DNA of 64,000 nucleotides from Limonium bicolor (lineage: Eukaryota; Streptophyta; Magnoliopsida; Caryophyllales; Plumbaginaceae): contig CM041779.1 in NCBI GenBank assembly GCA_023374045.1, positions 145,887,485 to 145,951,484 on the forward strand. Reading direction: 5' to 3'. The notes under the pieces are model-generated. The model was not told the DNA's origin. It saw nothing but the letters and a program-made list of their open reading frames with translations, and searched no databases. The stretch's first letter is position 1. Each line of letters begins with the position of its first letter. Shown here piece after piece: positions 14,460-38,576 of the stretch. Both the position numbers and the translations under genes were made by a program.

Positions 14460-17400
14460 TGTAACACCCCGTCCAAAGCCAATCGTGGTTGTCGCAAAAC
14501 TTAACACTTAATCGAATTCGTCGCAGCGGAAATAACATACACCGGGACCTTGCCTCGGTCTGATCGTTAGAATATACCGGCCTTATCAATTTACAACACT
14601 TATCCAAAGTAAACAACCGACCAAAACATCACCATCCAAAATACCACCAACCAACCGAGTTTAAGTATCTAAGTCATAGCCACAAACTTACATCAATTTT
14701 AATATAAACAGACGGGAGCACAAGCGCAACCCGTACTCAAAATAAACAACCCATCCTAAGTCTAACCGCTCCTACTCTCGTGGTGCGACTTCATGGGCCT
14801 CTTACCTGCAAGTGTAAAAACAGCCCCCAAAGGGGGTCAGCACGAATGCTGGTACTCCCTCTCATGGCCCCCAAGCTAACGGGGCTACGACGACTAATTG
14901 TCGATAGCATGGAAATTGATTAAGTACACAAGCATGATATGAAGTGCAATAAACAACAATCCACAGATGAACATACATAGTTCACACACAATGAACGACA
15001 CAAGCGTTCCCTTAACAAGCGGGTTAGTAACCCCCTCCTTAGTTCTGAATTCCTTAACCTCAGTTCCTTATCATACCTCAGTCTTAACCTTTTCTTAATC
15101 TCAGTATACAAACCGTTCCTAGAAAGGGAATGGTTGTAGATTAATCTCAAACCTAGGATTTAGGTGATCCTACCGCACCATCTTAATGCCACCTACCTTG
15201 GACGGGAGTCCAGCGTAGCTGAGCCGGCAACCGGCCCTAGGCAACAAGTCCGAAGACAAGTCCTTAAGCGGAGGGCGGATCTGATTCAGATACCGTCCCC
15301 CTTTCCTTAGCATGCATGACCAGAGTCAGTCCCGGGTTTCCTCACTCAAGTTCCAGTTAGTAAAGATCTTACCCACCATGTGTTAGTTAAACCTTAACGG
15401 GTATTAACCAACAATCACCAATACTTAACTCTTATCCTTAACTCAGTAAGTACTAAACTTGGTTAGTAACAGTCTCAAGTCTCGTGGGTTAGTGTAAAGA
15501 AAACACATACACAACGAGAACAAATATAACCGGTTGCATGCTTTATCTTGTCTTAGACATAGCAAGTAAACAGATAGCACACAAGCCGAGGGACACCTCG
15601 TTAGCAAGCAGGTCACAAGAAAGATTGTACCGTTCACCGTCGCCTGTCGTTTGTTTAACCTTCTCCAGGGTCCCAATTCACAAACCTAAAACATTGATTC
15701 ATTTTTAGGCCATTAGTTATTTGCACCTTACTTAACTCACTTAGTCCCTAAAGATTCCCATTCGATACCCTCTTAAGTCTTTGCCACTTAACCTTATAAA
15801 CTTAACTTTAAACATTAAGGTTTATACTTAACTTAACTTATTCCCTTAGGCTCTTAGGGTCCTAATCATTACTACCCTACCAATGTCATACCTTACTACC
15901 CATTAACATCCTTAGAATTTAAAATTTCTTTTTTTTTTGGTTTTGGCTCGACCGATCTTACCGACCGACCTTACCCAAGGTCGGTCCATTCCAGAACATA
16001 TTACCGTTTGAAAATTCTACCCCAACCGACCTTGCAATTCCGGTCCCCAAGGTCGGTCCATTCCCGAGAGTTTTCCCCGTGGGAAATTTAAGCCCGACCG
16101 AACTTGCCAAGTCCGGTCCCAAGTTCGGTCGATTCCAAAGACCAATTCCCGTACAAAATTATAGGCATGACCGACCTTGCAAGTTCGGTCCCAAGGTCGG
16201 TCCATTCCAGAGACTTAATTCGTACACAAAATACAAGCCTGACCAAACTTGTAAGTCAGGTCCCCAAGTTCGGTTGGTTCCAGAAACTCCTTCCGGTAGG
16301 GTAAACTGAGCTCGACCGACCTTGTAGGTCCGGTCCCTAAGGTCGGTCGGCTCTAGAACCTTGTTTTAAAATTCCCATTTGACTCCAAACTTCTCCTCTT
16401 ACTCCCTAGTATGTTCTAACCTCATTTGGGCACCTCAAATACACCTTAAGCCTTCCACTAAACCCATTAAATCCCTCTCCAACATCCACCTTAGTCATTA
16501 TGCATTTTCCTTGTAATCATGCCAACACTTGTAATGTTTTTCACTAGGTTTCTAGGTGGTGGTTCATACCTAATATAACCACTATGCCAAATGCTTCCTC
16601 ACCACCATAACATCATCTCCCAAGCATCTTTCACCATCTAAAACTCTTTTATGCAACTACTTAAAGTTTCTACACAAGTTTGTGCCTCCATCCATCAACA
16701 CATCATTTCCCTCCTAGTTGTTTACCAACATTTGCCTAAGTCCTAAATACACTAGTACATTCATTTGATTCCTAAATCCTCCATGATCATGTCTAGGTCA
16801 TTCTAACTCATTATACACCTTAAACTCACCCTTTTTCATCAAGACAACCTCTAAAACTTCCTAGTACTTCCTTAGTCATGAAATCTCCTTAGAACATCTA
16901 AAACACTTAGGTTCTTCACTAAATTTTGCAATGGGTTCCCTAGTATATTGTTACACCCAAACACTTGGTTTTTCACCATCAAGCAACCAAGATCACTCAA
17001 ATTCTCATTACAACATCTTAACACACAATTTACACCAAAACTACACCATATCATCATATAGTGTATAAACTTAAAATGCTTGGCACTTAGGCCCTTAAAT
17101 GACAATAATCTTAACCACTGAATTTCCACATATATTTGCCTTTAACCTGCAAATACACACAACAAGGCTCCCATTGAAATATAATGCTTCTTGTAATTCA
17201 TCTCAACATTGTTTGACTATCTCTTTTCTCATTGGCTCCTTAGTCACAAGTTCTCAAACATAGTCATTGTTTCTCCTAGGTTATATATAGCCCTTTTCTA
17301 CTGTAAACTCTACATTAAACTCATCACATATCTAAATCACATTCCCTTAAACAATAAAACACCTTAAGGTAAGTAATTTACCTTGTTCTTTTACAAGCTC

Positions 17401-18680
17401 ACAAACTTTCCTCCTTAGACTTTTTCCTTGAACAATCTCGGTCACCAACCAAGTTCTCCATGTCAATGTTCTAACCAATATCCAATGACTCCAATGAGTG
17501 CTAGATAATACATTAACCCTAAGGAACAAACCCTAGGTTAAAATGTGCTTTAAGGTATTAAGGTGGTTGTTTTACCTTGGTTTCTCAAGACAAGCTTGGA
17601 TATGAAGCAAGAAGGACCTCCTTTTTCCTTTGGAGAGTAGAAAACAAGCTAGAACAAGGCATAAACATGGAGTCCCATGAGTACAAATTTTCGGACAAGG
17701 GAAGAAATGATGGAAACCTAGATTTTCTTACATATTCTTTACCTTAAGAGAATGGAGAAGCTAATGGAGTCTCCAAGCATGAGTTTCCTCCTCTAATGGT
17801 GATTTGCCTTGGCTCCAAAATGAGGCTCTTGAAGTTTTGAAAAGATAGAAAGAAAGAGCTTGAGCTGACTAAGAGATATATGTGCTTGGTTTTGATTTTG
17901 GAGCTTAAATGAGCAAGATGTGGGCAAAAGAAGATGAAGCTAGCATGGAGGTTGCTTCTTACGTGAGAGAGAAGAAAGAGAGCAAGAGAAATTGATGAAG
18001 AAGGTGAAGAATGAAGAAAGGAGGAGAGAGATGGCATATAAGATATTTGATTCCTTAAAAGCAAATAGTAATAACTTGTTTTTCTCTTTTTCTTCTAGCA
18101 TTAATTGGCTACTCTTGGTGACTCACACCCTTAGAAAACCGGCCCCCTTCATTAATTAGGCTGGTCATGGTCTTGTTTGACCAATTAATTAGACTTAATT
18201 GATTAAAGACTAAACTAAGCACTATTTGGTTACTATTCACAAATTAGTGCACATATTTGTGAAATTTTTGATTTCCCATTGATTTAGACTTCCTAATATG
18301 ATACTAATTAGCACACATGTTAATTAAGGAGTAATAATGGGCATTTAGCCACTTAAAACCCCTTTCTAAGACAATTTTTCAAAAATGTGCTTTAAGACTC
18401 CTTAAAGCACATTTTGTGTTTTAACTTGTTTTCAAGCTTGGTTTTCTTTGGTAATTAACTTAAAATTACCATTAGGATATTACTATGGTCTTAGAATGAT
18501 ATTTGGGTGCTCACCCAAGTCTCTCCAAGCTTAGAGCATGTTTTTGGCTTAAACTGCTCTTTTGGTGTTTCCTTATATTTTCTTTGATTAAAATGGTTTC
18601 TTAATGTTTCTAAGGCATTATTTAGCCTTCTTATACCTTAGTTTTTCAGTTAAAACCATATCTAAGTTTGGGGTATTTCA
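14460..18680 (-). repeat. 3' LTR of element A (4.2 kb)
   Basis: In + orientation it starts TGTAACACCCCGTCC and ends GGGGTATTTCA, next to a purine-rich tract on the - strand. Bases 14460-15538 match 24994-26070 and 15539-16045 match the piece at 34610-35123. No convincing coding region is present; short frames on either strand are composition artefacts. It has a palindrome cluster at about 15945-16350. Confidence 0.9.
15945..16350. repeat. GACCGACCTTG/AAGGTCGGTC palindrome cluster in LTR A
   Basis: Five to six units of about 65 bases each contain GACCGACCTT followed by AAGGTCGGTC. The beginning of the same array is present at 35025-35123 in the other LTR, which stops inside it. Confidence 0.8.
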
Positions 18681-18991: not shown

Positions 18992-20450
18992 CTAGTCAGT
19001 AAACAAAGAAGGGTACTTCGCCCTCATTTTATCCTCTAATTCCTACGTGGCCTCTTCAACATCCTGGTTAGACCAGAGAACCTTCACCAGTCGCGCTGAC
19101 TTATGGCGAGTGTCCCTAGTCTTACTATTCAAGATTCTCTGAGGAATCAACATGGATCTCATATTCGGTTCTAATGTCAACCTCTCAGGTTCTAACACAT
19201 GGGAGGGGTGGTACATGTATTTCTTTAGCTGTGAAACATGAAAAACATCATGCACTTTACCCAGTTCAACAGGTAAATTCAACCTGTAAGCAACCGGGCC
19301 CCCCGCTCCGTTATCTCATAAGGACCAACAAACTTCGGGCTTAATTTGCCCTTCTGACCAAATCTGAATACACCCTTCATTGGTGAAACTCGCAGAAATA
19401 CCCGGTCGCCCACTGCGAACTCCAGGTCTCGTCGTCGAACATCAGCATACGACTTCTGCCTATCTTGAGCAGCTTTCATGTTCTCCCTGATTTGCTGAAC
19501 TTCAGCCTTAACTTGTTCTAAATATTCTGGTCCTATAATGACCGTCTCACTCGACTTATCCCAGCAGAGCGGTGTACGACATGGTCTACCGTACAACGCT
19601 TGAAAAAGTGCCATCTTGAACGAAGCGTGATAGCTGTTGTTGTATGAAAACTTGATCAGATGCAATTTGTCAATCCAACTGCCCTGGAAGTCTAAGGCAC
19701 ATGCCCTCAGCATGTCCTCGAGTGTCTGAATAGTACGCTCAGTCTGACCATCTGTCTGAGGATGGAACGCGGTACTCAGCTTCAATTCTGTACCCAACGC
19801 TTCCCTGGTAGCTCTCTAGTACCTCGAAAGGAATCTGGTATCTCTATCTGACACTATGGTCTTCGGTATCCCGTGCTGCCTCATAATTTCCTTCTCAAAC
19901 AACTCAGCCAATTTGGTCACCTTCCAAGTATCCTTCATCGGTATGAATCGGGCTACTTTGGTAAGGCGATCCACCACCACCCATATCATGTTGAGACCTC
20001 CCCTAGCAGGTGGGAGTCCAACTACAAAGTCCATGGAGATATCATGGAACTTCCACTCCGGAACTGGCATCGACTGTACCATTCCGCCCGGTCGTCGGTG
20101 CTTGAATTTCACCTTTTGGCATGTGAGACACCTTAAGACGAACTCGGTAACATTTGTCTTCATCCCCGACCACCAGAAGTATCTCTTCATGTCTTTATAC
20201 ATCTTAGAGGCTCCCGGATGGATGGAAACTGAAGAACAGTGTGATTCCCTAAGTATACGGTCTTTCAGATCCGTGTTGCCCCGTGGTATGCATAACCGGC
20301 CCTTAAGTCTGATCAGATCATCGTCGTGAAGTCTGAAGTCATATTTCTGACCCTCAAAAGTACCATCTGTCAGCTTCTGTCTGACCTCTCTCATATACTC
20401 ATCTTTCCTCTGAGCTTCTCGCACCTCATTAACCAAGCTGGAGAAAGAAA
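18992..20450 (-). pseudogene. Integrase and chromodomain-like tail of element A
   Basis: Frames at 20436-19816, 19797-19279 and 19282-19043 cover the zinc-binding region (HPGASKMYKDMKRYFWW ... CLTCQ), the catalytic aspartates (ISMDFVVGLP and IVSDRDTRF) and the glutamate region (FHPQTDGQTERTIQTLE). The tail (DVFHVSQLKKYMYHPSHVL, then VKVLWSNQDVEEAT) is the chromodomain-type module typical of Tekay-like chromoviruses. Breaks are a TAG in the SRYW region near 19816, a frame change near 19280, and TGG-to-TAG after EEAT near 19040. The final stop is at 18992-18994. Confidence 0.9.
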
Positions 20451-22340
20451 CTAGCGAATGGAGTGAGTGTGCTCCTTCTGAGTAAATATGTATTGGAGGT
20501 CAATGTCATAGTCTTTCAAGAATTCTAACCATCTCCTCTGTCTGAGATTCAACTCCTTCTGAGTAAATATGTATCTTAAACTCTTATGATCGGTGTAGAT
20601 CATCACACTAACCCCGTATAAATAGTGGCGCCATATCTTCAATGCGAAGACTACAGCTCCCAGCTCCAAATCATGTGTGGGGTAGTTCTCCTCATGTTTC
20701 TTCAACTGGCGTGAGGCATATGCCACCACCTTGCCATGTTGCATGAGCACGCAACCCAGCCCTCTGCCGGATGCATCACAGTAAACCTCAAATCCCTCTG
20801 TACCGTCTGGAATGGTCAGAACCGGTGCAGTGGTCAGTGAGTCTTTCAAACTCTGAAATGATCTCTCACAGTCAGCCGTCCATAAGAACGGTGCATCTTT
20901 CTTCATCAGACTGGTCATCGGTTTCGCGACCTTGCTGAAATCCCTAACAAACCTCCTGTAGTAACCTGCCAGACCGAGGAAGCTCCGGATGTCGGTAACA
21001 GTCTTCGGCCTTGGCCAAGTACGTACGGCATCAATCTTTGTTGGATCCACTGAGATCCCACCATCTGAGATGACATGACCTAGGAAAGAGACCTGGTCAA
21101 GCCAAAACTCACACTTGGAGAACTTAGCATATAGCTGGTTCTCCCTCAATATCTCAAATACTCTCCTCAAGTGTTCCTCATGTTCAACCTTAGATCTCGA
21201 ATATATCAATATCATCAATAAACACCACAACCGACTTGTCCAGCTGCTCCCGGAACAAGCGGTTCATCAAATCCATAAACTTCGCCGGTGCGTTCGACAA
21301 ACCGAACGGCATCACTGTAAACTCATAGTGGCCGTATCGTGTCTAGAATGCCGTCTTCTCAATGTCTCCCTCCTTAATGGCTATCTAATGATACCCCGAT
21401 CTGAGATCAATCTTGGAAAACACAGATGCTCCCTTCAACTGATCGAACAGATCGTCAATGCGGGGTAGTGGATACTTATTCTTCACTGTCACTGCATTCA
21501 ACTCTCTGTAGTCGATGCAGAGGCGGAGACTACCATCCTTCTTCTTCACGAAGAGAACTGGCGCTCCCCATGGTGATAGACTGGGTCTTATGAACCCTTT
21601 GTCTAACAAGTCCTTCAGTTGTTCCTTTAACTCATTCATATCTGCCGGAGCCATGCGGTATGGTGCCTTGGCTATCAGTCCGGTACCAGGGAGCAGCTCG
21701 ATGGTGAACTCTACCTCCCGAGTGGGTGGCATGCCGGGCAGTTCCCGTGGAAATAGATCGGGGAACTCCGACACTACCGGTAAGTCGGGGTCGAACTCGG
21801 GGTCTCTCTCTATGTCTTGTACATAGCAGAGGTACACTTCTTCCTTTCTCCTCAACTCCTTATACATTGCCATCGCGGTGATGATCTTAGTCGAAGGCTC
21901 TCTGGGCCTCTGGCGGTATGATATTGTTACCCCAAACGGGCTCCTGAGCAGCAATCTATGCTCGGCGCAGAGGATACGACCCTTGTGCCGCTCCAACCAG
22001 TTCATCCCGAAGATAACATCAAATCCTAACTCACTGAACTCAATAAAACTGACTGGAAAGTCTTCCCCCTTAATTCTGACAATGGCTCCTCGGTAGTAGC
22101 GAGTGCAACGAACCTTCTCCTTAGATGGGAGCGTAGCCATGAAGTCGGGTAGCTCATCAGCGTCTAGCCCCAACCTGCTCGCGAAAGATGCCGGGACAAA
22201 GGTATGCGAGGCCCCTGAGTCGAAGAGAACTGATGCCTCAATCCCATTAATCGGAAAGGTGCCGGTGAGGATAGTGCCGCTGGCATCGGCCTGTGCCTCT
22301 GTAAGTATGCTTAACGCACCTTCCGTACCGAGTCCATGAC
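20451..22340 (-). pseudogene. Protease, reverse transcriptase and RNase H of element A
   Basis: The protease has its DSGAS active site near 22215. RT follows with [21 protein letters not shown] near 21540, the FIDDI catalytic region near 21215 (one-base frameshift there) and [13 protein letters not shown] near 20960. RNase H has [14 protein letters not shown] and [10 protein letters not shown]. In-frame TAGs are seen after RSGYH (21384) and in the AF-TRYG segment (near 21342). The RNase H end is rearranged: a 22-base stretch around YIFTQKE is duplicated at about 20470-20570 and the usual [15 protein letters not shown] segment is missing. Confidence 0.9.
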
Positions 22341-22417
22341 CTAATTGTGTTCACAAGCTTCATGAGTATTGATGGTATAACAAGAGTCGTAACAATTTAT
22401 ATGAACAACACTGTTAT

Positions 22418-22423
22418 TTTATT
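22418..22423 (-). terminator. AATAAA polyadenylation-like signal after AlkB
   Basis: On the - strand AATAAA occurs about 75 bases after the AlkB stop codon, inside the long intron. It could end a short Gag-AlkB transcript. The motif alone is weak evidence in plants. Confidence 0.4.
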
Positions 22424-22497
22424 CATAACCATCCTGTTTACAACATGTGCTTCAATCTTACATCTCATTCCTTATCCCATACCAAAGCGTTACATAA

Positions 22498-23235
22498 TTA
22501 ATATTGTCTAAAGGTTAGGTTTAACCGTCCTGGTTTCATATGCGTCGCATTAACCACTGCTGACGGTGTGTATTCAGCTTGATTCTCTTAACCCCATGGT
22601 ACAACATCCTTGATTCTCCTCCCATAACTAATACATCTCCAGACTTAAGTACCAACTAATTTGCACGGTCCGCACGCTTCTGCTCGCCGTATAAAAACTT
22701 TGCATCATCCCCAATGGACCAAGACACTACAGGTATCCCTCTTTCGAGAGACTCCATTGTCTCGTCCTTATCCTGGTGTAGTCCAAGTCGCCCATCTTTC
22801 TCGTAGAAGTTCACAATGCAAATGTCTGCTTGTATGTCTGGAATCGGTTCAGCTTCCAACTGCTGAGCGATCTCCACGACTTGTGTAATAACTGGATGGA
22901 ACTCTTCGGGTATTCCCGGTGGTGAGACTCCATCCTGCATCCTCGTGGTTTGGTAGTTCTTGGCATACGGATTCCAATCCTTGCCTAAGCTCATCATTTT
23001 TAATTTCACCCTTGCCCCCCTATGTACTCCGGGGTATAAAAACCTCCCGGTCCCATTCCTAGTTGGTTGCATTTCCTGATGATGGCTATTTGCGCTTCGG
23101 GCGTCAGGTATCCCCTTAATAAAATCATACCTGGGCGGATAACCTGACATTGTTCGGTCGGAAAGTCTATGGTTTCGATGTCGGTGTACTCCGGGTTAGG
23201 TGTAGATGGTATTGGATAGCAGATGTTGAAGCTTC
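22498..23235 (-). pseudogene. Captured AlkB-type 2OG/Fe(II) dioxygenase exon
   Basis: The translation resembles plant ALKBH1-like proteins. It has the AlkB core KLKMMSLGKDWNP, DICIVNFYEKDGRLGLHQDK with the iron ligands H and D, VVSWSIGDDAKFLYG, SGDVLVMGG, the distal iron histidine in MLYHGVKRI and the 2-oxoglutarate-binding RLNLTFRQY (R-x-N-x-T-x-R). The family oxidatively removes methyl groups from nucleic acids. The exon starts in phase with the gag zinc-knuckle exon when the 23236 acceptor is used, and ends with its own TAA at 22498-22500. It is broken by a one-base loss in a G run near 23015, a TAG near 22656 and a frame change near 22560. It lies inside intron 3 of element A on the same strand. 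Confidence 0.85.
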
Positions 23236-23367
23236 CTAAAGTGGTAGTAGGTTATATCTTACTTAAGTTCTAATCTCATCTCATTTTCACTTAACTCAAT
23301 TATTCACCAATCATGCATGATAATGCGGTAAGCAGGTAATTTTATTACTAAATGGTTATAGCGGTAC
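23236..23367 (-). other. Alternative intron 3a joining gag to AlkB
   Basis: It uses the same donor as intron 3 (GTACCG at 23367) with acceptor ACTACCACTTTAG|GAAGC. The 132-base intron joins CCA G to GA AGC and keeps the AlkB frame (PG|SFNICYPIP). A CCTACTAC sequence about 15 bases before the acceptor could serve as branch site. Confidence 0.55.
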
Positions 23368-23709
23368 CTGGCCGCGATGAGGGTTCAGGCTCATCGTCCC
23401 GGTCCACCAAGTGTAGTGTGGGTCCCGACTTCTGGGTCACCCGTGGGTTCTTGTCTGCAGCTTGCTGCACTCTCTTCTGACTATCAGATCCAGCTCCCTG
23501 AACAGTCTTGCCCTTGCCCCTAGTCTCGGGTCTATAGGCTCTACTAGCGGGGTTACGGAAGCACTCATATGCTCGGTGTCCGTAAACCCCACAATAATTG
23601 CATTCCACCTTATTCCCCTTGCAATCGAGCCCGGGGTGGTCCTTGTGACACCACCTACAAATGTAGCGTTGCTGGTAGCCACCACCGGCTCCCTTTTCAG
23701 TCTCAGATC
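23368..23709 (-). CDS. Element A gag exon 3 with two zinc knuckles
   Basis: The exon is open throughout (114 codons). It encodes CRWCHKDHPGLDC and CNYCGVYGHRAYEC, the paired knuckles found in Tekay-like gag proteins; element C has the equivalent pair near 42910-42990. The tail is rich in K, R, S and P and ends DDEPEPSSRP at the intron 3 donor. The knuckles bind element RNA during packaging. In a Gag-AlkB isoform they would sit directly in front of the dioxygenase domain. Confidence 0.8.
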
Positions 23710-23788
23710 CTGATCATTCACAATATTAGTACTCATATCTCAAACGGTTACTAGTTGTCTCATATCTCACTCAATATCAACCCCTTAC
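23710..23788 (-). other. Intron 2 of element A gag
   Basis: The - strand donor is CCAAAG-G|GTAAGG and the acceptor is GAATGATCAG|GATCTG, with a TACTAATA branch-site match about 25 bases before the acceptor. The 79-base intron joins PKG to SETEKG in frame. Confidence 0.7.
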
Positions 23789-24043
23789 CCTTTGGCACCC
23801 TTGAGCGCAGGGGTGTAGCTGCATACGCATATGCCAACTTCAGTGGCTCTTCCGGAGCCTTCTTTTCCTTTTCCTCCTTCCCTTTTGGTTCTGATTATTC
23901 TGGGACTGAGGCTGGTACTTCTGTTTCTTGTACCCACCTTGCCCTTGGTTCTCCGTGCTCTTACCGACACTCTTCCTCTTAGCATTCTCCTCGTCCCTCA
24001 GCTGGACGGTTATCTCAACCTTAGCAGCGGCATGATAGCACTC
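23789..24043 (-). pseudogene. Element A gag exon 2
   Basis: It reads ECYHAAAKVEITVQLRDEE, then a glutamine-rich segment, then after a one-base deletion near 23880 a lysine/glutamate-rich segment and LKLAYAYAATPLRSRVPK. The 255-base length plus the one missing base gives exactly the phase needed at intron 2. Confidence 0.7.
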
Positions 24044-24129
24044 CTGCTTTCCACAGTATTAGTCACTCTTATTTTCCATAATCTAAATCTTACTCATTTA
24101 CTTACTCAAATCTCAACCATTCTTATTAC
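24044..24129 (-). other. Intron 1 of element A gag
   Basis: The donor is TTGCAG|GTAATAAG and the acceptor TGTGGAAAGCAG|GAGTGC, with GACTAATAC as a branch-site match about 20 bases upstream of the acceptor. The 86-base intron joins TTLQ to ECYHAA. The homologous gag of element C reads STLQEAYDKAA without interruption at 45979-46642, so this is an extra segment in A. Confidence 0.78.
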
Positions 24130-24760
24130 CTGCAAGGTAGTGTATCTCGTCGGCCCCATGTCGTAGCGGAGTCGATGGCTAAGCCCGCCATAGAAGCGGT
24201 CCACCAGGATCTGGTCTGAATATCCAAGACCTGGCAGAAGACAGAGCAAGGCGGTGAACTCTGAGTAATACTCGTCCACCATCATCTTGTCGGTCTGCTT
24301 AAGCTCATCCAACTGCAAGCGCTTCTTCGTCTGGACATGGGTGGGGTAGTACTTTGCTCGTAGCAATGCGGTGTACTGCTCCCCCGAACTCTGGATTGGC
24401 CACATGCTCGGCCCTCACCAGCTTCCACCAATCGCCTGCTGCCCCATTCAGATAGAAAGCAGCCAGACGCACCTTGATCCCAGCAGGGATGTCAAGGGTC
24501 TCGAAGGCGGTCTTCAGCTCGGAGATATACGCCTCAAGCTTGGCGGGATCGGTCTCCCCCTTAAAGTGTGCGGGTCGAAGGTCTGCAAGGCTCTTCACCC
24601 AATTCGGTTCCCGGGGTTGTGGTGGTGGAGGTGGTGCACCCACACCAGGCTGATAGCCCATATGCCCTAAGGCGGCAGCTACGATCTCTGCGATCGTCTG
24701 CCCTTCCGGTATCTCAGTCTCGTCGCCTCTGGGACGGCCTCGGCCTCTCCTTCCTGACAT
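24130..24760 (-). pseudogene. Element A gag exon 1
   Basis: It starts MSGRRGRGRPRG and includes the gag core motifs HFKGETDPAKLEAYI, FYLNGAAGDWWK and, after a frameshift near 24385, VDEYYSEFTALLCLLPGLG. It ends at TTLQ at the intron 1 donor. The start codon at 24758-24760 is chosen because the arginine-glycine-rich head follows directly; a second ATG 12 bases upstream is possible. Gag would assemble the particle. Confidence 0.85.
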
Positions 24761-24960: not shown

Positions 24961-24993
24961 GATCAGAGCGTAACTACGCTCTGATACCACTTT
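24961..24993 (-). promoter_or_regulatory. tRNA-iMet primer binding site inside a hairpin (element A)
   Basis: A few bases inside the 5' LTR the - strand reads TGGTATCAGAGC (24989-24978), the standard plant initiator-Met primer site. It overlaps a near-perfect inverted repeat, TATCAGAGCGTAGTTACGCTCTGATC. The same hairpin recurs behind LTR G at 45826-45850 and in its copies. Confidence 0.85.
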
Positions 24994-26070
24994 TGTAACA
25001 CCCCGTCCAAAGCCAATCGTGGTTGTCGCAAAACTTAACACTTAATCGAATTCGTCACAACGGAAATAACATACACCGGGACCTTGCCACGGTCTGATCG
25101 TTAGAATATACCGGCCTTATCAATTTACAACACTTATCCAAAGTAAACAACCGACCAAAACATCACCATCCAAAATACCACCAACCAACCGAGTTTAAGT
25201 ATCTAAGTCATAGCCACAAACTTACATCAATTTCAATATAAACAGACGGGAGCACAAGTGCAACCCGTACTCAAAATAAACAACCCATCCTAAGTCTAAC
25301 CGCTCCTACTCTCGTGGTGCGACTTCATGGGCCTCTTACCTGCAAGTGTAAAAACAGCCCCCAAAGGGGGTCAGCACGAATGCTGGTACTCCCTCTCATG
25401 GCCCCCAAGCTAACGGGGCTACGATGACTAATTGTCGATAGCATGGAAATTGATTAAGTACACAAGCATGATATGAAGTGCAATAAACAACAATCCACAG
25501 ATGAACATACATAGTTCACACACAATGAACGACACAAGCATTCCCTTAACAAGCGGGTTAGTAACCCCCTCCTTAGTCCTGAATTCCTTAACCTTAGTTC
25601 CTTATCATACCTCAGTCTTAACCTTATCTTAATCTCAGTATACAAACCGTTCCTAGAAAGGGAATGGTTGTAGCTTAATCTCAAACCTAGGATTTAGGTG
25701 ATCCTACCGCACCATCTTAATGCCACCTACCTTGGACGGGAGTCCAGCGTAGCTGAGCCGGCAACCGGCCCTAGGCAACAAGTCCGAAGACAAGTCCTTA
25801 AGCGGAGGGCGGATCTGATTCAGATACCGTCCCCCTTTCCTTAGCATGCATGACCGGAGTCAGTCCCGGGTTTCCTCACTCAAGTTCCAGTTAGTAAAGA
25901 TCTTACCCACCATGTGTTAGTTAAACCTTAACGGGTATTAACCAACAGTCACCAATACTTAACTCTTATCCTTAACTCAGTAAGTACTAAACTTGGCTAG
26001 TAACAGTCTCAAGTCTCGTGGGTTAGTGTAAAGAAAACACATACACAACGAGAACAAATATAACCGGTTG
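24994..26070 (-). repeat. 5' LTR of element A, PBS-proximal part
   Basis: It starts TGTAACACCCCGTCC and matches 14460-15538 almost base for base. It ends at the target duplication GGTTG (26066-26070) of element E. The remainder resumes at 34605. Confidence 0.9.
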
Positions 26071-27843
26071 TGTGAGCCTCGATTTTAAACCCTATCCTAT
26101 GTGGATTAACTTGATTGGGATCTAATCGGGTTTTAGGTCCACTTATAGCCTAAGATTAATAACTATGTCATATAACAATAATTATTAAAACCTAAGCTAG
26201 CTCACTGGAACCTATTATGAGTCGCCACCTAATTTTAACCTAGATCAAATTAGGAAAGGAGAGTTCGGGTTCGGGGGCTTGATATTCGACTTAACTAGGG
26301 TTCAAATTACTTTCATTACCCTTCCTAGGTCGTTTTTCATCTACTTGGTTCAATTACGGCTTTCTACAAAGTTGTTTTTAACCTAGGTGCTCGCTTCTGT
26401 TTTTTTTTTTTTTTAACGTTTTTTTTTGACAGAAAATTAAAGTGGAAATTAAAATTACCTAAACTAGGGTTTCGGAGGCAAAATTAGGTCAAATTTTGTT
26501 TCCGTCCGTAGCCACGGACCTAATGTCCGAGACCACGGACCCCAGTTAACCTATATGAAAATAAAAGTCGAATTAAACAGAAAACAGAAAATTGTAAAGT
26601 CCGGGGCCACGGACAGGCTGTCTGTGGGCCGGACATTATTAGAAAACCTAAATTTTTAAAATTTAAAAATCCCGCCGCCGTCCGTGGGCGTCCGAGCTTA
26701 CGGACAAGGAGTCTGGGACCCCGGACATGACGTCCGTGGGTGCGGACCGCCCTCGGACGGCGGCGCTGAGGCTGTTCCCGAAGGTGTTTTGGCTCAAATT
26801 TTGTGGGTGTGTAGCCTGAAAGATGTACAAGACGTTAGTGATTGAAAGTTTTCAATTTGAATTCGAATTAAGCACGAAACTTGGTAAACACGTTATTGGA
26901 CAGAAGCTTAAACAAACAGCAATACAGAAGCGCACGAATGTTAGTTTGAACCCAAAATTTGACAGAGAGTTAATAAGGTCGTGGGGAATTAGAAAAGTAG
27001 AGTTGTAACCTGTTTTACCTTCGAATTCAAGATGATTCTTCACACCGGGATTCGTTGAGTGCTTCGTTGATGGCAGACCCGAAAGGATTTCGAACCAAGC
27101 TTCTGGTTGTTGGTTGTTCTTGCTGTTCTTCACGTTTTGATGACTATTGGTGCTTTGGGGATTGGAAAACGTGTTTAGATGGTGATTTCGAGGGATCTTC
27201 TGTATGATTTGGGTGGCCGGGTGTTGGAAAACGTGAGAGAGAGAGAGAGAGGAGGCTGTGTTTTCTAACTCTCTAGGGTTCTTGAGCATATGAGGTTCTC
27301 CTTTTATCCAAAAACCTATCCCCTTATATAGACTTTCTTAAAGATAAAGAAAATCTAGTAAAAGTAAGATTTTTTGGTATTTTAATTAAAAGACTTCCCA
27401 AAGGAATTTTGCTGTGAAATTTTAACCACATGTCAAGGATGGATATTATGAATTTCCTGAGGTGGAACCGAATTTTTTAAATGTTGGAATATTTTTAAAT
27501 TGAATTTCTTGTCAAATTCAGTCAGAAATTGCTAGAAAATTATTGGAAACTCGAAAAATAAAATTCCAACGCCATTATGCTTAGAATGTCATCCTCTATC
27601 ATGGGTTAAAATATCAAAGCGTTTCAAGCTGATTTGGGCATCCTTTGGAGGAGAGAAAAAGCTTATAGGAGGTCTGAGGAGCCTTTAAAGATTACCAAAA
27701 CGCCCCTGAAAATGACGAAGATGTTCCCCATGCCATGGAACACGCTGATCGAGCCGGAATCCCTCACTACTTGATTAAAATGCCTTTCACAACACCAGCA
27801 CCCCGTAGACCCTAACCCAGGGGGTCAAAATTTTGGTATAACA
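26071..27843 (-). repeat. 3' LTR of element E
   Basis: In + orientation it runs from TGTGAGCCTCGATTTT to TTTGGTATAACA. It matches 32809-34604 and, in opposite orientation, the solo LTR at 2986-4747. The GTCCGTGG/CCACGGAC cluster is at about 26500-26765. A short GAGA run sits near 27235-27252. The frames on both strands are not protein-like. Confidence 0.93.
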
Positions 27844-27870
27844 GATTGCCCCCCGTCAACTAGACTTTGT
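27844..27870 (-). promoter_or_regulatory. Polypurine tract of element E
   Basis: On the - strand GACGGGGGGCAATC directly precedes the TGTTATACC start of the 3' LTR. This is the expected position of the plus-strand primer. Confidence 0.75.
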
Positions 27871-27969
27871 AGTGGATGTGAAAAGTCTGGTTGATGCTTG
27901 AGTGATGCCCCAAAATTTTGGACTTCACGAAATTCTCCATGTTGTGCGAAACCGCGTTGATTGCGTGCA

Positions 27970-28440
27970 GCTATTCGGAGGCGCTGACTACCTATGCAAC
28001 AAAAACGCTGTCGAGCTATTCTAAGGTGCTGACTACCTATAAGTGAAAATGTGTCAAGCTATTCTAAGGCGCTGACTACCTAGGTGACGAAAACGGAATA
28101 ATGTCAAGCGGTTCTAAGGCGTTGACTACCTATAATACATGAAATGATGCGATGCCAAGCGATTCTAAGGCGTTGACTACCTATAAGTAAAATGAAGTAA
28201 TGTCAAGCAATTCTAAGGCGTTGACTACCTATAATGATGATATGATGTCAAACTATTCTAAGGTGTTGACTGCCTGTGACGAATGAGATGATGTCAAGCT
28301 ATTCTAAGGCGTTGACTACCTATAAGTAAAGTGAAATGAAGTAATGTCAAGCGATTCTAAGGCGTTGACAACCTAAAATGTGGAAATGAGATAATGTTAA
28401 GCGATTCTAAAGCATTGACAACCTATAATGATGATAACTG
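27970..28440 (-). repeat. Tandem array, TTCTAAGGCGTTGACTACCTA unit (about 10 copies)
   Basis: Ten diverged copies of a 38-50-base unit share the core ATTCTAAGGCGTTGACTACCTATAA. They lie between the gag-like ORF and the 3' LTR, where Tat-lineage elements are known to accumulate satellite-like repeats. Confidence 0.85.
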
Positions 28441-28790
28441 GGTGGTATGCAAATGCAAGAATGCTGAAATGTTGATGATGCTAATGATGCTGACGATGTT
28501 GATGATGTTGATGATGTTGATGATGTTGATGTGATGTTTGATGATGCTGATGATAATGCTGATGATGCTCGGATGCTTCTGGGGACCGAAACCCGTGCCA
28601 ATGCTCCTGGCTGGACCCAATGTGGACTTATTGCCATCGCCCCCCAAGCCGGTGTGCAGGGATAACTCCTGGTAAAAACCTTGGGGACTTATTGCCTTTG
28701 CCCACCATTCGTTGATCCCGAAAATAAGTTGACATCGCAAAAGGAGGATTTATTGCTATCACCTCGCCAACTTTTCTGTTGCCAGGTCTT
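28440..28790 (-). repeat. GATGATGTT-rich run and degenerate repeat stretch
   Basis: From 28470 to 28570 the sequence is nearly pure GAT/GCT/GTT triplets. It is followed by two related segments containing GGACTTATTGCC. The translated poly-Ser/Ile frames are repeat artefacts. Confidence 0.75.
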
Positions 28791-29225
28791 GTGACGCGCC
28801 TGGATAATGCAACTAGGTCTTATGACGAGCCTATATGAATGAGATGAATGCAATGTGTTTGGTGAGAGTGGGTAAGCTAGAGGGTAACGCTAGGTCTTAC
28901 TACGAGCCTAAGGGAATGCAACTAGGTCTTATGACGAGCCTAAGGGTTGGATCTAGGTCTTATGACGAGCCTAAAGGATGGATCTAGGTCTTATGACGAG
29001 CCTAAAGGTTGGATCTAGGTCTTATGACGAGCCTAAAGGTTGTTTTAAGTGAAAGTGAGTAAAATGTATGATGGGTCTAAATGGATGTAGAAAGATTAGG
29101 GTTTATGTCAAATCTGAAGATGGTAGGGCTCAAGATGGGCCTACGGATGTTTGGGTGTGAAGGTAGGGCTTAGGACGGGCATGTGGGAATTTGATGTGGA
29201 GGAAGGGCTTAGGACGGGCCTATGA
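28785..29225 (-). repeat. Tandem array, CTAGGTCTTATGACGAGCCTA unit
   Basis: About seven copies of a 25-31-base unit occur at 28785-29040. They are followed by three copies of a related GTAGGGCTTAGGACGGGCC unit up to 29225. It is a second array in the 3' region of element E. Confidence 0.85.
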
Positions 29226-31010
29226 ATGTTTGGATGATTTGAACCTTTGGGTTTTGGACTTTTGGGCCTCAATCGGTGTCGTTGTTGCAATTGTTGGAAC
29301 CAACAATTGCCCCCAGTATTCTTTCTTAAGGCAATCTGAGATAGAGTTCATGGCGATCGATCGGAACGATCGATTGCCCCCAGTATTTTCTTTGATTAAT
29401 TGCGCAAGAACAAATCTCATCCTCACAAGGTCAAGGTTTTTTTGGTGTGGTGCCTTCTATCCTACACTCAACGTGTTTGGTGTTTGCACTCATTTCTCAC
29501 TTACGGTCACAACTTCTCAACCATTGAATTCGACATTTGTTAGATTTACGTGTTCAACCTGTTACTTTCACTCGATTGGATACACAACTACTAAGTCGAA
29601 GTCTTTTAAGCTTATAACGTGACTATGGGGTGTGTGAATGATAACAGGACAATGGAGGAATGTTTAGGATATGTGGAGCTATAAGGGTGACCAAATCTGC
29701 AACTTGCACCGTCTCTCGGACTTGTCTTCTTTGCCTTGAAGTCGTTTGGCTACTTCGTGATGACTTCGCTCATGAACTTGGGACTTGGAACTTTTGGATT
29801 GTTCCTTGCATCTTCTTTCTTTTTTCCGATTCTGGGTTTCTTTGAGGCTTTTCAGGTTTTCCTTTCTTTGAATCTCCTTTCCTTCGGGGTTCTTGTGTTT
29901 CCCGGTTTTGAACTTTGGAAGCTGTTTTTGATGTCAGCTCATTTGGATCCTGTGTCACTTTGGGACCATTTGCGGATCATTTTGTTATGCTGGTAGCAAA
30001 TTTACTTCTCTGGACTTGTGAAGTTGCCGTTCGGAAGTCGGGCTCCTTGCTTCCTTTGGTCACCGGGTCGGTTATTCATCATTGGCTGGCTTGTTTGTGG
30101 AGCTTGTAATATTGTGAAAGAGGTCATATATGAAAAGCTCAGCGGGGGTGCCTAGGGTGTAATGTCAGGGTTCACAAGCTTTTGGCTGTGTGGTGCTGTA
30201 CCTAGGTGCTTCGTCATCCCTGGTAGTTGTGTATCTGTTCTTTGTTACTTTTCATAGGTTAAAGCATAAATTTACAAATTATCTCCTTCGGTTGGAGTCA
30301 TGCCGTTTACCTTACCTTCGAATGTGACCTCTCTAGAGTCGTGTAAAAATGACACGCTCGTTCTCTCTTGGTTTTTCCACTTAAGACACTCTCGCGAAGT
30401 GTACCCTCAGAGACTTGTTTGCACAAAAGAAATAAACATTATCGTTCCTTAACTCAGATTGCCCCCAGTATTATTGTGGGGTTTTTCGACAAGCCTTTTG
30501 AGTACCCAGGTTATTTGTGGAAGGTGGTTGTGTGGAATAATGATGGTGAGTGGTGATGGAGTGGTCTTGTGAACGAATGATGGATGATGTGGTGACTGAC
30601 CAATATATCTTTTTCTGGAGTTTTTCTTGGTTTTGCTTTGGATGAACTGGTGGATTGTGGTAAACGTAGGTGAAATGAGGAGTCGATCTTGTTCATGGTG
30701 TGAGTGATGGCTATGGATGTGGCAAAGCTTGCTCATGGTGGTCGCAAGGGGATACTTCTTTTTGTTTTTTATTGTTGAATTTATGAATGACTAAATGCAT
30801 GCATAAATGAGAACTTACACAGAATGAAAATCCTCATTTCATGATTGAATGCAAATAACAAAGTTAACTGTAATTTCAAAAGACAAGGACTATCTAGAGA
30901 GATAAAATTGAACTACTGAGAAAGTTGAAAACAGTAATTAAATGAAAACATAAGAACTGTACAATATCTAACGGCGCCCGAACATAGGATTCATGTAGAA
31001 GTTGTTGTCT
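29226..31010 (-). other. Non-coding 3' interior of element E
   Basis: No conserved protein is recognised. AATTGCCCCCAGTATT recurs three times (near 29306, 29378 and 30460). The block 30003-30480 is conserved in inverted orientation at about 62760-63205, so it is a family-specific non-coding region. Confidence 0.6.
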
Positions 31011-31769
31011 TCAAGGGAATCGGAAGCCTCGGTCGATAAGATCTTGAATTTTATGCCTCAGATTCCTGCAATTGGTGCTATGTCCTGGTAGCTTGTGAAA
31101 TTGGCAGAATTGATTGAGGTGTTCCCCTGCTTGAATAACCCCGGGATGAGATGCAATAGGCCATAGTAGATTCAGTTCCTGCAGTTCCATGAGGGCTTGA
31201 CTGAGAGGTCGGCCAATGCTGGTAAACTGTCTCGGTGTAGAGAAATGCCTAGGTCGAGCTGATTCTTTGGTTTTTAGTTTTGAGACTGGGATTGCTACAT
31301 CTGGCTTTGCCTTCAAAGTCTTGTTGTCCACTCCCCGAGCTTTGAGCTGTCCTACTTGTAACCTGGCACTGTAGGTCTGCGGGCACATGAAACTCTCGCC
31401 CAGGGCGGGTGTTGATAATCCCGACTTAGTGCAAAATCTCAAGGAATTTAAACTGGACGTTTTGGGAGTTTCTTCTGGTTGTCTGCTCACCCTCTCGTGT
31501 TCTGCAGCAATTTCCTCGATATTCCCTTGTGAACCTTGGGCCGTAATAGAGCTAACTTCAATGCATTTGTGAAGAGAACTAAGAAGCCTGTTCACTAGTT
31601 CATTTTGGACTTGACGTCCGGCCTCAAGGGAAAGGGTCTTCGTTTTCAATTCTTCAATTGTGGCAATGTAGTTAGACTCCATGGCGTTCCTGACGGCACT
31701 ATGTCTCTGCTCCATGGCATTAATGGTGTCCATGTACTTTTGTTCCAAAGCCGCGAGATGGATACCCAT
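31011..31769 (-). CDS. Gag-like protein of element E
   Basis: The frame has 252 codons. Its N-terminal third is helical and charged (KYMDTINAMEQRHSAVRNAM) and likely coiled coil. The C-terminus has a CQFHKLPGHSTNC motif, a CX2HX4HX3C knuckle-like cluster seen in Tat-lineage gag proteins, followed by RNLRHKIQDLIDRG. It is the only plausible protein of this element and may help package its RNA. It could instead be the remnant of a longer gag. Confidence 0.65.
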   Translation of the reverse strand: MGIHLAALEQKYMDTINAMEQRHSAVRNAMESNYIATIEELKTKTLSLEAGRQVQNELVNRLLSSLHKCIEVSSITAQGSQGNIEEIAAEHERVSRQPEETPKTSSLNSLRFCTKSGLSTPALGESFMCPQTYSARLQVGQLKARGVDNKTLKAKPDVAIPVSKLKTKESARPRHFSTPRQFTSIGRPLSQALMELQELNLLWPIASHPGVIQAGEHLNQFCQFHKLPGHSTNCRNLRHKIQDLIDRGFRFP

Positions 31770-31879
31770 GTTGATCGGATTTCCTCCTTCACCAATCCTA
31801 GGATTTGGATTTACCTGTTTCCGAAGCGCCGTCTGCTAGAAAACAAAAGAGGACAGAACTGAAATTCTAGGTCGCGAAG

Positions 31880-32790
31880 ATGCCTTAGGTTAAAACTTGT
31901 TCGGGCCGCAGAAACAGTACATGAGCTGGAATGGTCCCTAAATCACAAATGGGCCTAGCTTTCTTCAGGCCAGAGAAGATGGTTGCTAAACCGAAAAAGA
32001 TTATATTTTCAGGACTTGTGAGTTATTTGAAGTTCAGGTGGATTTCTTTTTTATGGGCCTAGAACTAATTGGATAATTCAAAATTGGGCCAGAAGAGAAA
32101 TCACCTAAGTCTAGGCTTTTGGGCCGAAGCCCGAACGACTCACATGTTAAACCAAACAGGGTCTCTGGGCCGCAAACAAATAGAGCTGCCAATTCGTGTT
32201 GGGATAGGTTGATGTAGGAGGAGTTCCTATCAATCTCTAGGCTGGGTAGTGGGCCAATCGTACAAGCAAACAGGGCCCACACAAATTCAACATGTCCTCA
32301 CTAGACGTTTAAACCAAACCGGGTATGGGCCAATCCGGAGAGGTGCTTGGGGCATGGGCCCAGGTCACCACAAAGGAATAGGGCATGCACGCTATTCTCT
32401 TTGGGCTTCCCCACTCTTTTCACATCACCTGAAGGTGTGCGTCTACGGTCGGGTCATTGACTGACCAAACAATGGGCTAGGTAAGGGCACTGCCAGGAAA
32501 ACGCTTGGGGCTAAGGCCCAGGTATTAAGGGGGTGTGGTTAGACGACACCCTCCTCTTTTCCCCCATTTATTCACATAACCTAAAAGGTGTGAGTCCCTG
32601 ACAGGGGACCCCCAAACGGGTCCCGGGGTGAAATTGGTTTGCGTGGACCCTCGCTCTCATATGATGCAAGGGTACAAAAATTAAAGTGCGCACGAAAGTA
32701 AACAAGCAGAGTAAATAAAGCCATAAATAAACATTTTCAAGTTAAGCCCTCTTTCCTAAAATTTAACAAGTTAATATTAAAAAGTTGTCC
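31880..32790 (-). promoter_or_regulatory. 5' untranslated region of element E with TGGGCC cluster
   Basis: This stretch between PBS and gag holds roughly ten copies of TGGGCC/T or its complement between about 31940 and 32520. TGGGCY is the known plant site II (TCP factor) motif. No coding content is visible. Whether the sites act is unknown. Confidence 0.45.
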
Positions 32791-32808
32791 CCAGCAGAGT
32801 CGCCAGTC
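32788..32808 (-). promoter_or_regulatory. Primer binding site of element E
   Basis: Just inside the 5' LTR the - strand reads TGGCGACTCTGCTGGGGA. The initial TGG matches a tRNA CCA end. Tat/Ogre elements have been reported with TGGCGACTC-type sites, but I cannot confirm the tRNA from memory. Confidence 0.65.
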
Positions 32809-34604
32809 TGTGAGCCTCGATTTTAAACCCTATCCTATGTGGATTAACTTGATTGGGATCTAATCGGGTTTTAGGTCCACTTATAGCCTAAGATTAATAA
32901 CTATGTCATATAACAATAATTATTAAAACCTAAGCTAGCTCACTGGAACCTATTATGAGTCGCCACCTAATTTTAACCTAGATCAAATTAGGAAAGGAGA
33001 GTTCGGGTTCGGGGGCTTGATATTCGACTTAACTAGGGTTCAAATTACTTTCATTACCCTTCCTAGGTCGTTTTTCCTCTACTTGGTTCAATTACGGCTT
33101 TCTACAAAGTTGTTTTTAACCTAGGTGTGCGCTTCTATTTTTTTTATTTTTTAACGTTTTTTTTTACAGAAAATTAAAGTGGAAATTAAAATTACCTAAA
33201 CTAGGGTTTCGGAGGCAGAATTAGGTCAAATTTTGTTTCCGTCCGTAGCCACGGACCTAATGTCTGAGACCATGGACCCCAGTTAACCTATATGAAAATA
33301 AAAGTCGAATTAAACAGAAAACAGAAAATTGTAAAGTCCGGGGCCACGGACAGGCTGTCCGTGGGCCCGGACATTATTAGAAAACCTAAATTTTTAAAAT
33401 TTAAAAATTCCGCCGCCGTCCGTGGGCGTCCGAGCTTACGGACAGGGAGTCCGGGACCCCGGACATGACGTCCGTGGGTGCGGACCGCCCTCGGACGGCG
33501 GCGCTGAGGCTGTTCCCGAAGGTGTTTTTGGCTCAAATTCTATGGGTGTGTAGCCTGAAAGATGTACAAGACGTTAGGGATTGAAAGTTTTCAATTTGAA
33601 TTCGAATTAAGCACGAAACTTGGTAAACAAGTTATTGGACAGAAGCTTAAACAAACAGCAATACAGAAGCGCACGAATGTTAGTTTGAACCCAAAATTTG
33701 ACAGAGAGTTAATAAGGTCGTGGGGAATTAGAAAAGTAGAGTTGTAACCTGTTTTACCTTCGAATTCAAGATGATTCTTCACACCGGGATTCGTTGAGTG
33801 CTTCGTTGATGGCAGACCCGAAAGGATTTCGAACCAAGCTTCTGGTTGTTGGTTGTTCTTGCTGTTCTTCACGTTTTGGTGGTGTTTTTGTGGGGTTTTG
33901 ATGACTATTGGTGCTTTGGGGATTGGAAAACGTGTTTAGATGGTGATTTCAGGGGATCTTCGGTATGATTTGGGTGGCCGGGTGTTGGAAAACGTGAGAG
34001 AGAGAGAGAGGAGGCTGTGTTTTCTGACTCTCTAGGGTTCTTGAGCATATGAGGTTCTCCTTTTATCCAAAAACCTATCCCCTTATATAGACTTTCTTAA
34101 AGATAAAGAAAATCTAGTAAAAGTAAGATTTTTTGGTATTTTAATTAAAAGACTTCCCAAAGGAATTTTGCTGTGAAATTTTAACCACATGTCAAGGATG
34201 GATATTATGAATTTCCTGAGGTGGAACCGAATTTTTTTAATGTTGGAATATTTTTAAATTGAATTTCTTGTCAGATTCAGTCAGAAATTGCTAGAAAATT
34301 ATTGGAAACTCGAAAAATCAAAATTCCAACGCCATTATGCTTAGAATGTCATCCTCTATCATGGGTTAAAATATCAAAGCGTTTCAAGCTGATTTGGGCA
34401 TCCTTTGGAGGAGAGAGAAAGCTTATAGGAGGTCTCAGGAGCCTTTAAAGATTACCAAAACGCCCCTGAAAATGACGAAGCTGTTCCCCATGCCATGGAA
34501 CGCGCCGATCGAGCCGGAATCCCTCACTACTTGATTAAAATGCCTCTCACAACACCAGCACCCCGTAGACCCTAACCCAGGGGGTCAAAATTTTGGGTAT
34601 AACA
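32809..34604 (-). repeat. 5' LTR of element E
   Basis: It is 1796 bases, TGTGAGCC...GGTATAACA in + orientation, almost identical to 26071-27843. It carries 23 extra bases near 33880. The palindrome cluster is at about 33240-33500. Confidence 0.93.
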
Positions 34605-35123
34605 GGTTGCATGCTTTATCTTGTCTTAGACATAGCAAGTAAACAGATAGCACACAAGCCGAGGGACACCTCGTTAGCAAGCAGGTCACAAGAAAGATTG
34701 TACCGTTCACCGTCGCCTGTCGTTTGTTTAACCTTCTCCGGGGTCCCAATTCACAAACCTAAAACATTGATTCATTTTTAGGCCATTAGTTATTTGCACC
34801 TTACTTAACTCACTTAGTCCCTAAAGATTCCCATTCGATACCCTCTTAAGTCTTTGCCACTTATCCTTATAAACTTAACTTTAAACATTAAGGTTTATAC
34901 TTAACATAACTTATTCCCTTAGGCTCTTAGGGTCCTAATCATTACTACCCGACCAATGGAATACCTTACTACCCATTAACATCCTTAGAATTTAAAATTT
35001 CTTTTTTTTTGGTTTTGGCTCGACCGATCTTACCGACCGACCTTACCCAAGGTCGGTCCATTCCAGAACATATTACCGTTTGATAATTCTACCCCGACCG
35101 ACCTTACAAGTCCGGTCCCCAAG
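34605..35123 (-). repeat. 5' LTR of element A, distal fragment cut off at 35123
   Basis: After the second GGTTG the sequence continues the A LTR, matching 15534-16050. It stops inside the GACCGACC cluster at GGTCCCCAAG. About 2.6 kb of LTR is missing; the next base belongs to element C pol. Confidence 0.9.
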
Positions 35124-38555: not shown

Positions 38556-38558
38556 AAA

Positions 38559-38576
38559 TGGCGCCGTTGCCGGGAA
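38559..38576 (+). promoter_or_regulatory. Primer binding site, tRNA-Asp type (element D)
   Basis: Three bases after the LTR, TGGCGCCGTTGCCGGGAA matches the complement of the plant tRNA-Asp 3' end with one mismatch. It is the same primer type as the Athila element at 12963-12980. Confidence 0.9.

Follow-up and report, generated by a model that had tools for sequence, protein, structure and literature searches.

The stretch of Limonium bicolor DNA analysed here (64,000 nucleotides of contig CM041779.1, hereafter the window) is crowded with nested long terminal repeat (LTR) retrotransposons. One of them, denominated element A, is a decayed LTR retrotransposon of the chromovirus type found on the minus strand, and hosts within its gag-pol region a sequence encoding an AlkB-type dioxygenase. 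Gag is split into three exons. The AlkB exon, provided with its own stop codon and polyadenylation signal, is located between the exons encoding the zinc knuckle and the protease, and one splice donor (23367) faces two acceptors, situated before 23235 and before 22340, both in phase. This arrangement suggests a splice switch. It is somewhat better than an even guess that a chromovirus-type lineage captured a plant ALKBH1-type dioxygenase and kept it as an alternative terminal exon, alternative use of the two acceptors included.

Gag exons, introns and the AlkB exon

The features described in this section are all on the minus strand. Gag exon 1 (24130..24760) encodes the capsid, matches Retrotrans_gag (1.4e-10) and, below cut-off, Ty3_capsid (4e-4), and has a frameshift near 24385. 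It is followed by intron 1 (24044..24129, 86 nt, 30% GC), which has the structure CAG/GTAATA...ACTAAT...GCAG/GA and stops in all frames. Gag exon 2 (23789..24043) features a frame change, due to a frameshift near 23860, and is separated by intron 2 (23710..23788, 79 nt, 35% GC; GG/GTAAGG...TACTAAT...TCAG/GA) from gag exon 3 (23368..23709). The latter, aligned to relatives by tblastn, carries the zinc knuckle (zf-CCHC, E 0.0019, below cut-off) and ends at the junction with RP-G. Intron 3 (22341..23367) runs from gag to pro and holds the AlkB exon. Its donor, CAG/GTACCG, is at 23367; the near acceptor, TTTAG/GA, opens the AlkB exon at 23235, and the distal one, AATTAG/GT, opens the pro exon at 22340. 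The three GT...AG segments had been proposed with the same coordinates in a sequence-only reading of the window, and base composition and alignment breaks agree with them. Phase is likewise kept on joining the exons, as that reading held, being 0 at intron 1, 1 at intron 2, and 1 at both acceptors of intron 3.

GC content is 30-35% in introns 1 and 2 as well as in the two segments (132 and 157 nt) on either side of the AlkB exon, against 52-58% in the gag and pro exons and 46.5% in the AlkB exon. The flanking segments are intron-like in composition, and the switch falls at the predicted edges. Without splicing, the frame of exon 1 is closed by the eighth intron 1 codon, a stop, and that of exon 3 closes after five full codons of intron 3 (TAITI).

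A search with the protease-reverse transcriptase (RT) region scored 1,937 candidates, 52 of which passed the E 1e-30 threshold, and ten gag-pol relatives chosen from these 52 pol matches have been aligned to the window by tblastn. Four alignments end exactly at 24130, the donor position of intron 1. That of P0130 overruns 24130 by two residues and resumes at 24037, 6 nt past the intron 1 acceptor. Among the other five relatives, P0153 extends to 24109, and four end earlier or lack a good match at this donor. A weak match of P0127 (E 0.003) begins 15 nt before the intron 1 acceptor. On the protease side all ten alignments begin between 22338 and 22275, after the distal acceptor, which fits an acceptor before 22340. 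The AG at 22300-22299, an alternative pro acceptor also in phase, has been set aside, because nine of the ten relatives align upstream of the start of its exon. Within the AlkB stretch, the best match among the ten has an E value of 0.023.

The AlkB exon spans 22498..23235, is interrupted by frameshifts near 23015 and 22568 and by a TAG at 22658-22656, and ends with GRLNLTFRQY and a TAA at 22500-22498. An AATAAA is found 3' of the stop (22418..22423). Acceptor, stop and polyadenylation signal are therefore where the sequence-only reading had placed them. The identity of the product, for which a profile search had been advised, was confirmed by PF13532 (2OG-FeII_Oxy_2), which matches two of the three AlkB pieces scanned (E 1e-18 and 6.2e-10); the N-terminal piece has no Pfam match. 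The nearest solved structure is that of the rice protein OsALKBH1 (5xeg/5xoi, 117.6 bits, E 2.8e-33). The HxD...H iron site and the RxxxxxR motif (H, D, H, R, R) are encoded in the window as well as in the two closest relatives among the public proteins listed, P0002 and P0003. In the window the five catalytic residues, which serve iron and 2-oxoglutarate, are spread over broken frames. The intact relative P0003 has been modelled with AlphaFold on a 20-row alignment (pLDDT 84.0, pTM 0.82). Compared by Foldseek to PDB chains, the model finds OsALKBH1 at the top (TM 0.91-0.93 by target, 50-51% identity) and E. coli AlkB next; animal chains of ALKBH1 (E 4e-11) and of ALKBH5 (E 1e-8) rank far below. 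Similarity and model both assign the AlkB of the window and of P0003 to the plant ALKBH1 type rather than to ALKBH5.

Where the conserved coding sequence begins is of interest. Similarity between the window and P0003 starts at the near acceptor, 36 codons before the first ATG in the frame of the window (referred to as the MILL methionine). From the acceptor to this methionine the two sequences align ungapped, with 16 of 37 residues identical, while upstream of the acceptor they match at 2 of 26 positions. No ATG is present in the window between the preceding stop and the conserved AlkB stretch. The limit of similarity and the lack of ATG together suggest that conserved coding begins at a splice acceptor, as expected for an internal exon.

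AlkB might alternatively be a separate open reading frame (ORF) translated alone, from the MILL methionine or from a transcript of its own, the splice-like sites being incidental. The ORF predicted for P0002 starts exactly at the MILL methionine, and from there the domain is nearly complete (PF13532 profile positions 2-194). In P0003 an ATG precedes the conserved start by 27 codons, in sequence unlike that of the window, and this protein might be read without any fusion to Gag. The known case in orchids is also a separate ORF2, as far as described in the available text (PMC9289625). Against this, the coding similarity of the window and P0003 reaches 36 codons above the MILL methionine and halts at the acceptor; the window has no ATG in these codons; the AT-rich AlkB flanks are intron-like; and the gag start and other ATGs come first on any LTR-driven transcript. 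A separate ORF is hence regarded as unlikely, though it deserves to be taken seriously.

Alternatively, AlkB could be embedded in one long Gag-AlkB-Pol polyprotein obtained by stop suppression or frameshifting, and the gag-AlkB-pro order does resemble the gag-dUTPase-pro order of betaretroviruses, as given in the part available of PMC4531489. The AlkB terminus GRLNLTFR(Q/E)(Y/F) is however found at the same place in the window, P0002 and P0003. In addition, 157 nt of AT-rich DNA lie between AlkB and the pro exon, stops occur in the pro frame before 22350, and gag is interrupted by introns 1 and 2 too. A polyprotein of this kind is improbable. Because all three sequences share the AlkB terminus, Pol would have to be reached in a different way, most obviously through the far acceptor. 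The alternative-exon reading remains the preferred one.

The AlkB sequence could have been brought in as a retrocopy. No poly(A) tail was found, and the longest word shared by the flanks is 9 nt long and located away from the edges, where no direct repeat is present. Precise insertion boundaries with a target duplication, named in the sequence-only reading as evidence that, in aligned copies, would speak against an exon, did not turn up in the window copy.

Relatives of the AlkB sequence and constraint on it

In the AlkB protein search 403 candidates were scored, 313 passed the E 1e-15 threshold, and the best 120 of the 313 were listed. P0002 (70% identity, 210 amino acids, contig of 26,621 bp) ranks first. 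P0003 (64% identity, 273 amino acids, intact ORF, contig of 26,561 bp) is second. The remaining 118 listed matches, among which many named plant proteins, do not exceed 53% identity. In the protease-RT search the top match is P0124 (285 bits vs 225 for the next), an intact ORF of 1,095 amino acids, and its contig measures 26,561 bp. Since the contigs of P0003 and P0124 have the same length, we infer that the two belong to one element, on strong but indirect grounds. The window and P0003 also have in common the same shortened segment between FDIC and RPGM. AlkB is not an accident of the copy found in the window, judging from its conservation in P0002 and P0003.

A tree has been built from 71 rows, corresponding to the window and 70 of the 120 listed matches. 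Window, P0002 and P0003 make up one clade (support 100/99), set apart from the 68 other rows by a stem of 0.98. The nearest host row is Cryptomeria (98/89), and a grouping of the clade with monocots is not rejected (p-AU 0.17); the tree allows both placements.

Constraint has been evaluated by taking the 118 other listed matches as hosts to define conserved and variable columns. Of 64 host-conserved columns the window retains 60; of 161 variable columns it shows the majority residue in 65. Along the window branch, changes fall in 1 of 58 conserved columns and in 18 of 76 variable ones (Fisher p 2.5e-4). The corresponding figures are 0 of 57 and 15 of 73 for P0002, and 3 of 60 and 31 of 89 for P0003. 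Changes avoid host-conserved sites and the catalytic residues are kept, which would be unexpected for a neutral passenger. The pattern suggests that AlkB is under selection in this clade, and that elements of this kind use the enzyme.

Many host gene fragments in transposons are passengers, and AlkB may be regarded as one more, a fragment or retrocopy of a host ALKBH1 sitting by chance in one dead element; the window copy is indeed broken in AlkB, gag and pol. The facts that the sequence falls in the same AlkB clade as ORFs from two other contigs, that changes avoid conserved sites, that neither a poly(A) tail nor a direct repeat is found at the edges, and that phase is kept make a functionless capture highly improbable. 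Almost as hard to credit is the idea that P0002 and P0003 are cellular genes, and that the element in the window captured a gene of their kind recently. The tree, with the monocot grouping at p-AU 0.17, does leave the donor unfixed, and if the two were cellular, their conservation would say little about the element and part of the constraint on AlkB would be cellular. Opposed to this are the 26,561-bp contigs on which both P0003 and its closest pol P0124 are found, the long stem common to the three sequences, and the shorter FDIC-RPGM segment shared by window and P0003.

Several observations weigh against the reading of AlkB as an alternative exon of a living lineage, in addition to the ATG of P0003 discussed above. 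Intron 3 has a weak donor (GTACCG) and no clear ACTAAT-type branch site; of the branch sites that the sequence-only reading ascribed to all the introns, those of introns 1 and 2, where ACTAAT is found about 20 nt before the 3' end, stood, and that of intron 3 did not. A splice-like string is by itself weak evidence, because two or more matches to the GT-branch-AG pattern were found in 129 of 2000 shuffles. The whole window has 8 such matches on the minus and 12 on the plus strand; 5 of the 8 on the minus strand belong to the region discussed here, where they overlap and use two acceptors. The intron structure of gag is known from the window copy alone, and a protein search with gag exon 1 gave 11 candidates, none of them passing. 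P0124 starts inside the protease and has no gag domain, while P0125 and P0130 have gag and pol in one ORF. This proves little, because 18 of the 52 pol matches, P0124 included, have no gag domain in the Pfam lists. Common placement of P0003 and P0124 is based on the shared figure of 26,561 bp, and the contig of P0002 (26,621 bp) is absent among the 52 pol matches. The substrate of the AlkB enzyme is suggested by homology only. Finally, the window copy of element A is dead. As to further relatives, none was detected by scanning viral_contigs with P0002, P0003, P0124 and the AlkB piece, or genome_contigs with P0003.

Element A and its surroundings

Paired LTRs, a primer binding site (PBS), and gag and pol domains identify element A as an LTR retrotransposon. 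The coding order is gag, zinc knuckle, protease, RT, RNase H, integrase and a weak chromodomain. The region encoding the products from protease to chromodomain (18992..22340, minus strand) has been aligned to P0124 by tblastn with identities of 56-80%, and contains, relative to P0124, three frame changes and up to five in-frame stops. Chromo (PF00385) scores below cut-off both in P0124 (E 0.0031) and in the window piece (E 0.026). The TGGTATCAGAGC sequence (24978..24989, minus strand), adjoining the end of the 5' LTR, is presumably a PBS of the tRNA-Met type. Sites of this type are typical of most chromoviruses and not of non-chromoviruses, according to the part available of PMC6317226. The LTR of element A has been followed on both sides of the coding region. 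More precisely, the element may be Tekay-like.

The 3' part of the 5' LTR (24994..26070, minus strand), directly followed by the PBS-like site, is 98.7% identical to 14460-15536 (14 mismatches over 1,077 nt). The LTR continues past the nested LTR element B at 34605..35123, also on the minus strand, which is 97.7% identical to 15525-16051; the pairing of the latter with 34598-35123 includes 11 mismatches and one gap over 527 nt. The 3' LTR (14460..18680, minus strand) has termini TGAAATACCCC...GGGGTGTTACA. Pairing with the 5' copy covers about 1,600 nt, confirming 14460-16051 only, as the rest of the 5' LTR falls outside the window. The start at 18680 is deduced from the terminal inverted repeat, TGAAATACCCC mirroring there the LTR terminus GGGGTGTTACA. 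The LTR is thus probably about 4.2 kb long, longer than the 1,077-nt match implies. Imperfect tandem repeats of the GACCGACCTTGGGGACCGG type are present at 15946-16361, within the 3' LTR.

Element B (26071..34604, minus strand; TGTTATACC...CTCACA) is inserted within the 5' LTR of element A, which is split by it. Its LTRs are 96.8% identical, and the 5-bp target duplication CAACC flanks it on both sides. Tandem repeats are found inside element B at 28.0-28.4 and 28.8-29.1 kb. It is no part of the AlkB system.

About 25 mismatches are found over the nearly 1,600 paired LTR nucleotides of element A, a divergence that suggests a fairly young insertion. As already stated in the sequence-only reading, the copy is decayed: gag and AlkB each have two frameshifts, AlkB has one stop besides, and in pol the frame changes three times and is interrupted by up to five stops. 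Frameshifts and stops in the 18992-24760 interval exceed those predicted from the LTR divergence (about 1.6%). Either the element was broken before being copied in trans, or the damage is in part assembly error; one of the frame breaks sits in a run of six G.

Two other regions of the window deserve mention. A further LTR pair, 37004-38555 and 40560-42112 (98.7% identical), was identified in the 35122-42112 interval, close to another related pol (35.1-37.0 kb) and to a pro (42.1-42.6 kb); no AlkB match was found in this region. The 45111-55985 stretch comprises three units arranged head to tail, about 3.65 kb long and 97% identical to one another; all of them contain gag ORFs, have no pol match, and share a 452-bp block at each unit end. 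The region looks like a tandem array of gag-only elements.

A possible splice switch and its precedents

The expression of element A may be pictured as follows. Because genomic copies keep the introns, unspliced RNA must be the packaged form, and it would likely be unable to make full Gag, as translation would meet a stop in intron 1. If introns 1 and 2 were removed and intron 3 kept, the product would likely be Gag alone. Use of the near acceptor and of the associated polyadenylation signal would likely lead to a Gag-zinc-knuckle-AlkB protein, and use of the far acceptor to Gag-Pol. As full Gag needs splicing and the packaged RNA is unspliced, splicing itself would separate translated from packaged RNA. 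The last step is the least certain. The Gag part would carry AlkB into the particle, and the enzyme might there demethylate the RNA or the single-stranded cDNA of the element, removing 6mA/m6A or 1-methyladenine/3-methylcytosine damage; target and benefit to the element may be imagined in these terms. For ALKBH1, a preference for 6mA-bearing DNA that is single-stranded or unpaired is reported in the text available of PMC10469495, and would fit cDNA in the particle. The complete scheme, in which a three-way splicing switch (Gag, Gag-nucleocapsid-AlkB, Gag-Pol) is coupled to particle packing of an ALKBH1-type demethylase via the zinc knuckle, the enzyme cleaning or unmarking RNA or cDNA, is tentative, and is held at a little less than an even chance.

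Retrotransposons that captured AlkB were already known. In 2022 an ALKBH5-type ORF was described in an Ogre-type element of orchids (PMC9289625, here and below as far as its available text goes). In that survey 121 angiosperm genomes were screened, and the 2-ODD domain was reported only in two Phalaenopsis species, in Ogre-type elements (Gypsy_Pa_2799). The paALKBH5-like ORF2 of Phalaenopsis had m6A demethylase activity in vitro. Gypsy_Pa_2799 and element A are both plant Ty3/gypsy elements with a captured AlkB-family dioxygenase, but differ in lineage (Ogre/Tat, sister to Ogre, with an Arg-tRNA PBS and dual RNase H, vs chromovirus-type), in AlkB subfamily (ALKBH5-like vs ALKBH1-like), and in layout (a single gag-pol ORF plus a separate ORF2 vs an alternative exon inside gag-pol). 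With an AlkB of the ALKBH1 type and a gag broken by intron stops, element A falls outside Gypsy_Pa_2799. The claim in the sequence-only reading that no LTR retrotransposon of this layout had been described must be narrowed accordingly. It may hold for the alternative exon, but does not for AlkB capture as such. Among the papers listed in a literature search covering titles and abstract openings, with few subscription papers and no preprints, none names an AlkB within a chromovirus or one used as an alternative exon. The novelty lies in the lineage (chromovirus-type), in the origin of the enzyme (ALKBH1-type), and in its encoding by an alternative terminal exon whose phase matches that of the Gag zinc-knuckle exon.

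The proposed mechanism has precedents in plants, as EVADE and BARE1 are spliced. In the available texts, EVADE obtains its short Gag RNA (shGAG) by splicing that is coupled with polyadenylation at an early site (PMC8892269), and a spliced Gag RNA is described for BARE1 (PMC3735527). Both resemble the model for element A in having a spliced subgenomic Gag RNA apart from the Gag-Pol RNA, with early polyadenylation in EVADE. They differ in being Ty1/copia elements with one described intron, whose short RNA bears no captured enzyme. Candidate splice sites and an AATAAA, from which a spliced and early polyadenylated short RNA of the EVADE kind might arise, are present in the DNA of element A. In Ogre, a Ty3/gypsy element of plants like element A, an intron within the coding region is spliced; this intron lies between ORFs, and no AlkB exon is mentioned in the available text of PMC3735527 and PMC12786077. 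Betaretroviruses offer a parallel in the nucleocapsid-dUTPase (p30 of MMTV), a nucleic-acid-quality enzyme fused to nucleocapsid at the gag-pro border, and found in the particle according to the part available of PMC4531489. It is produced by ribosomal frameshifting instead of splicing, and is a dUTPase and not an AlkB, so the likeness is one of analogy and not of kinship. Plant ALKBH1, represented by OsALKBH1 (5xeg/5xoi), has the same fold and catalytic residues as the AlkB of element A, with about 50% identity, but is a host protein, usually endowed with a longer N-terminal region.

If the reading is correct, element A would represent a second, independent capture of AlkB by a plant retrotransposon, in which both the AlkB and the retrotransposon belong to other branches than in the orchid case. 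That such a capture happened more than once would speak for methylation or alkylation of their nucleic acid as a pressure that retrotransposons of this sort really face. Like the betaretroviral nucleocapsid-dUTPase, the enzyme would be directed to the nucleic acid that is packaged, and from the splice switch one could learn how a single element apportions its output among Gag, Pol and an accessory enzyme.

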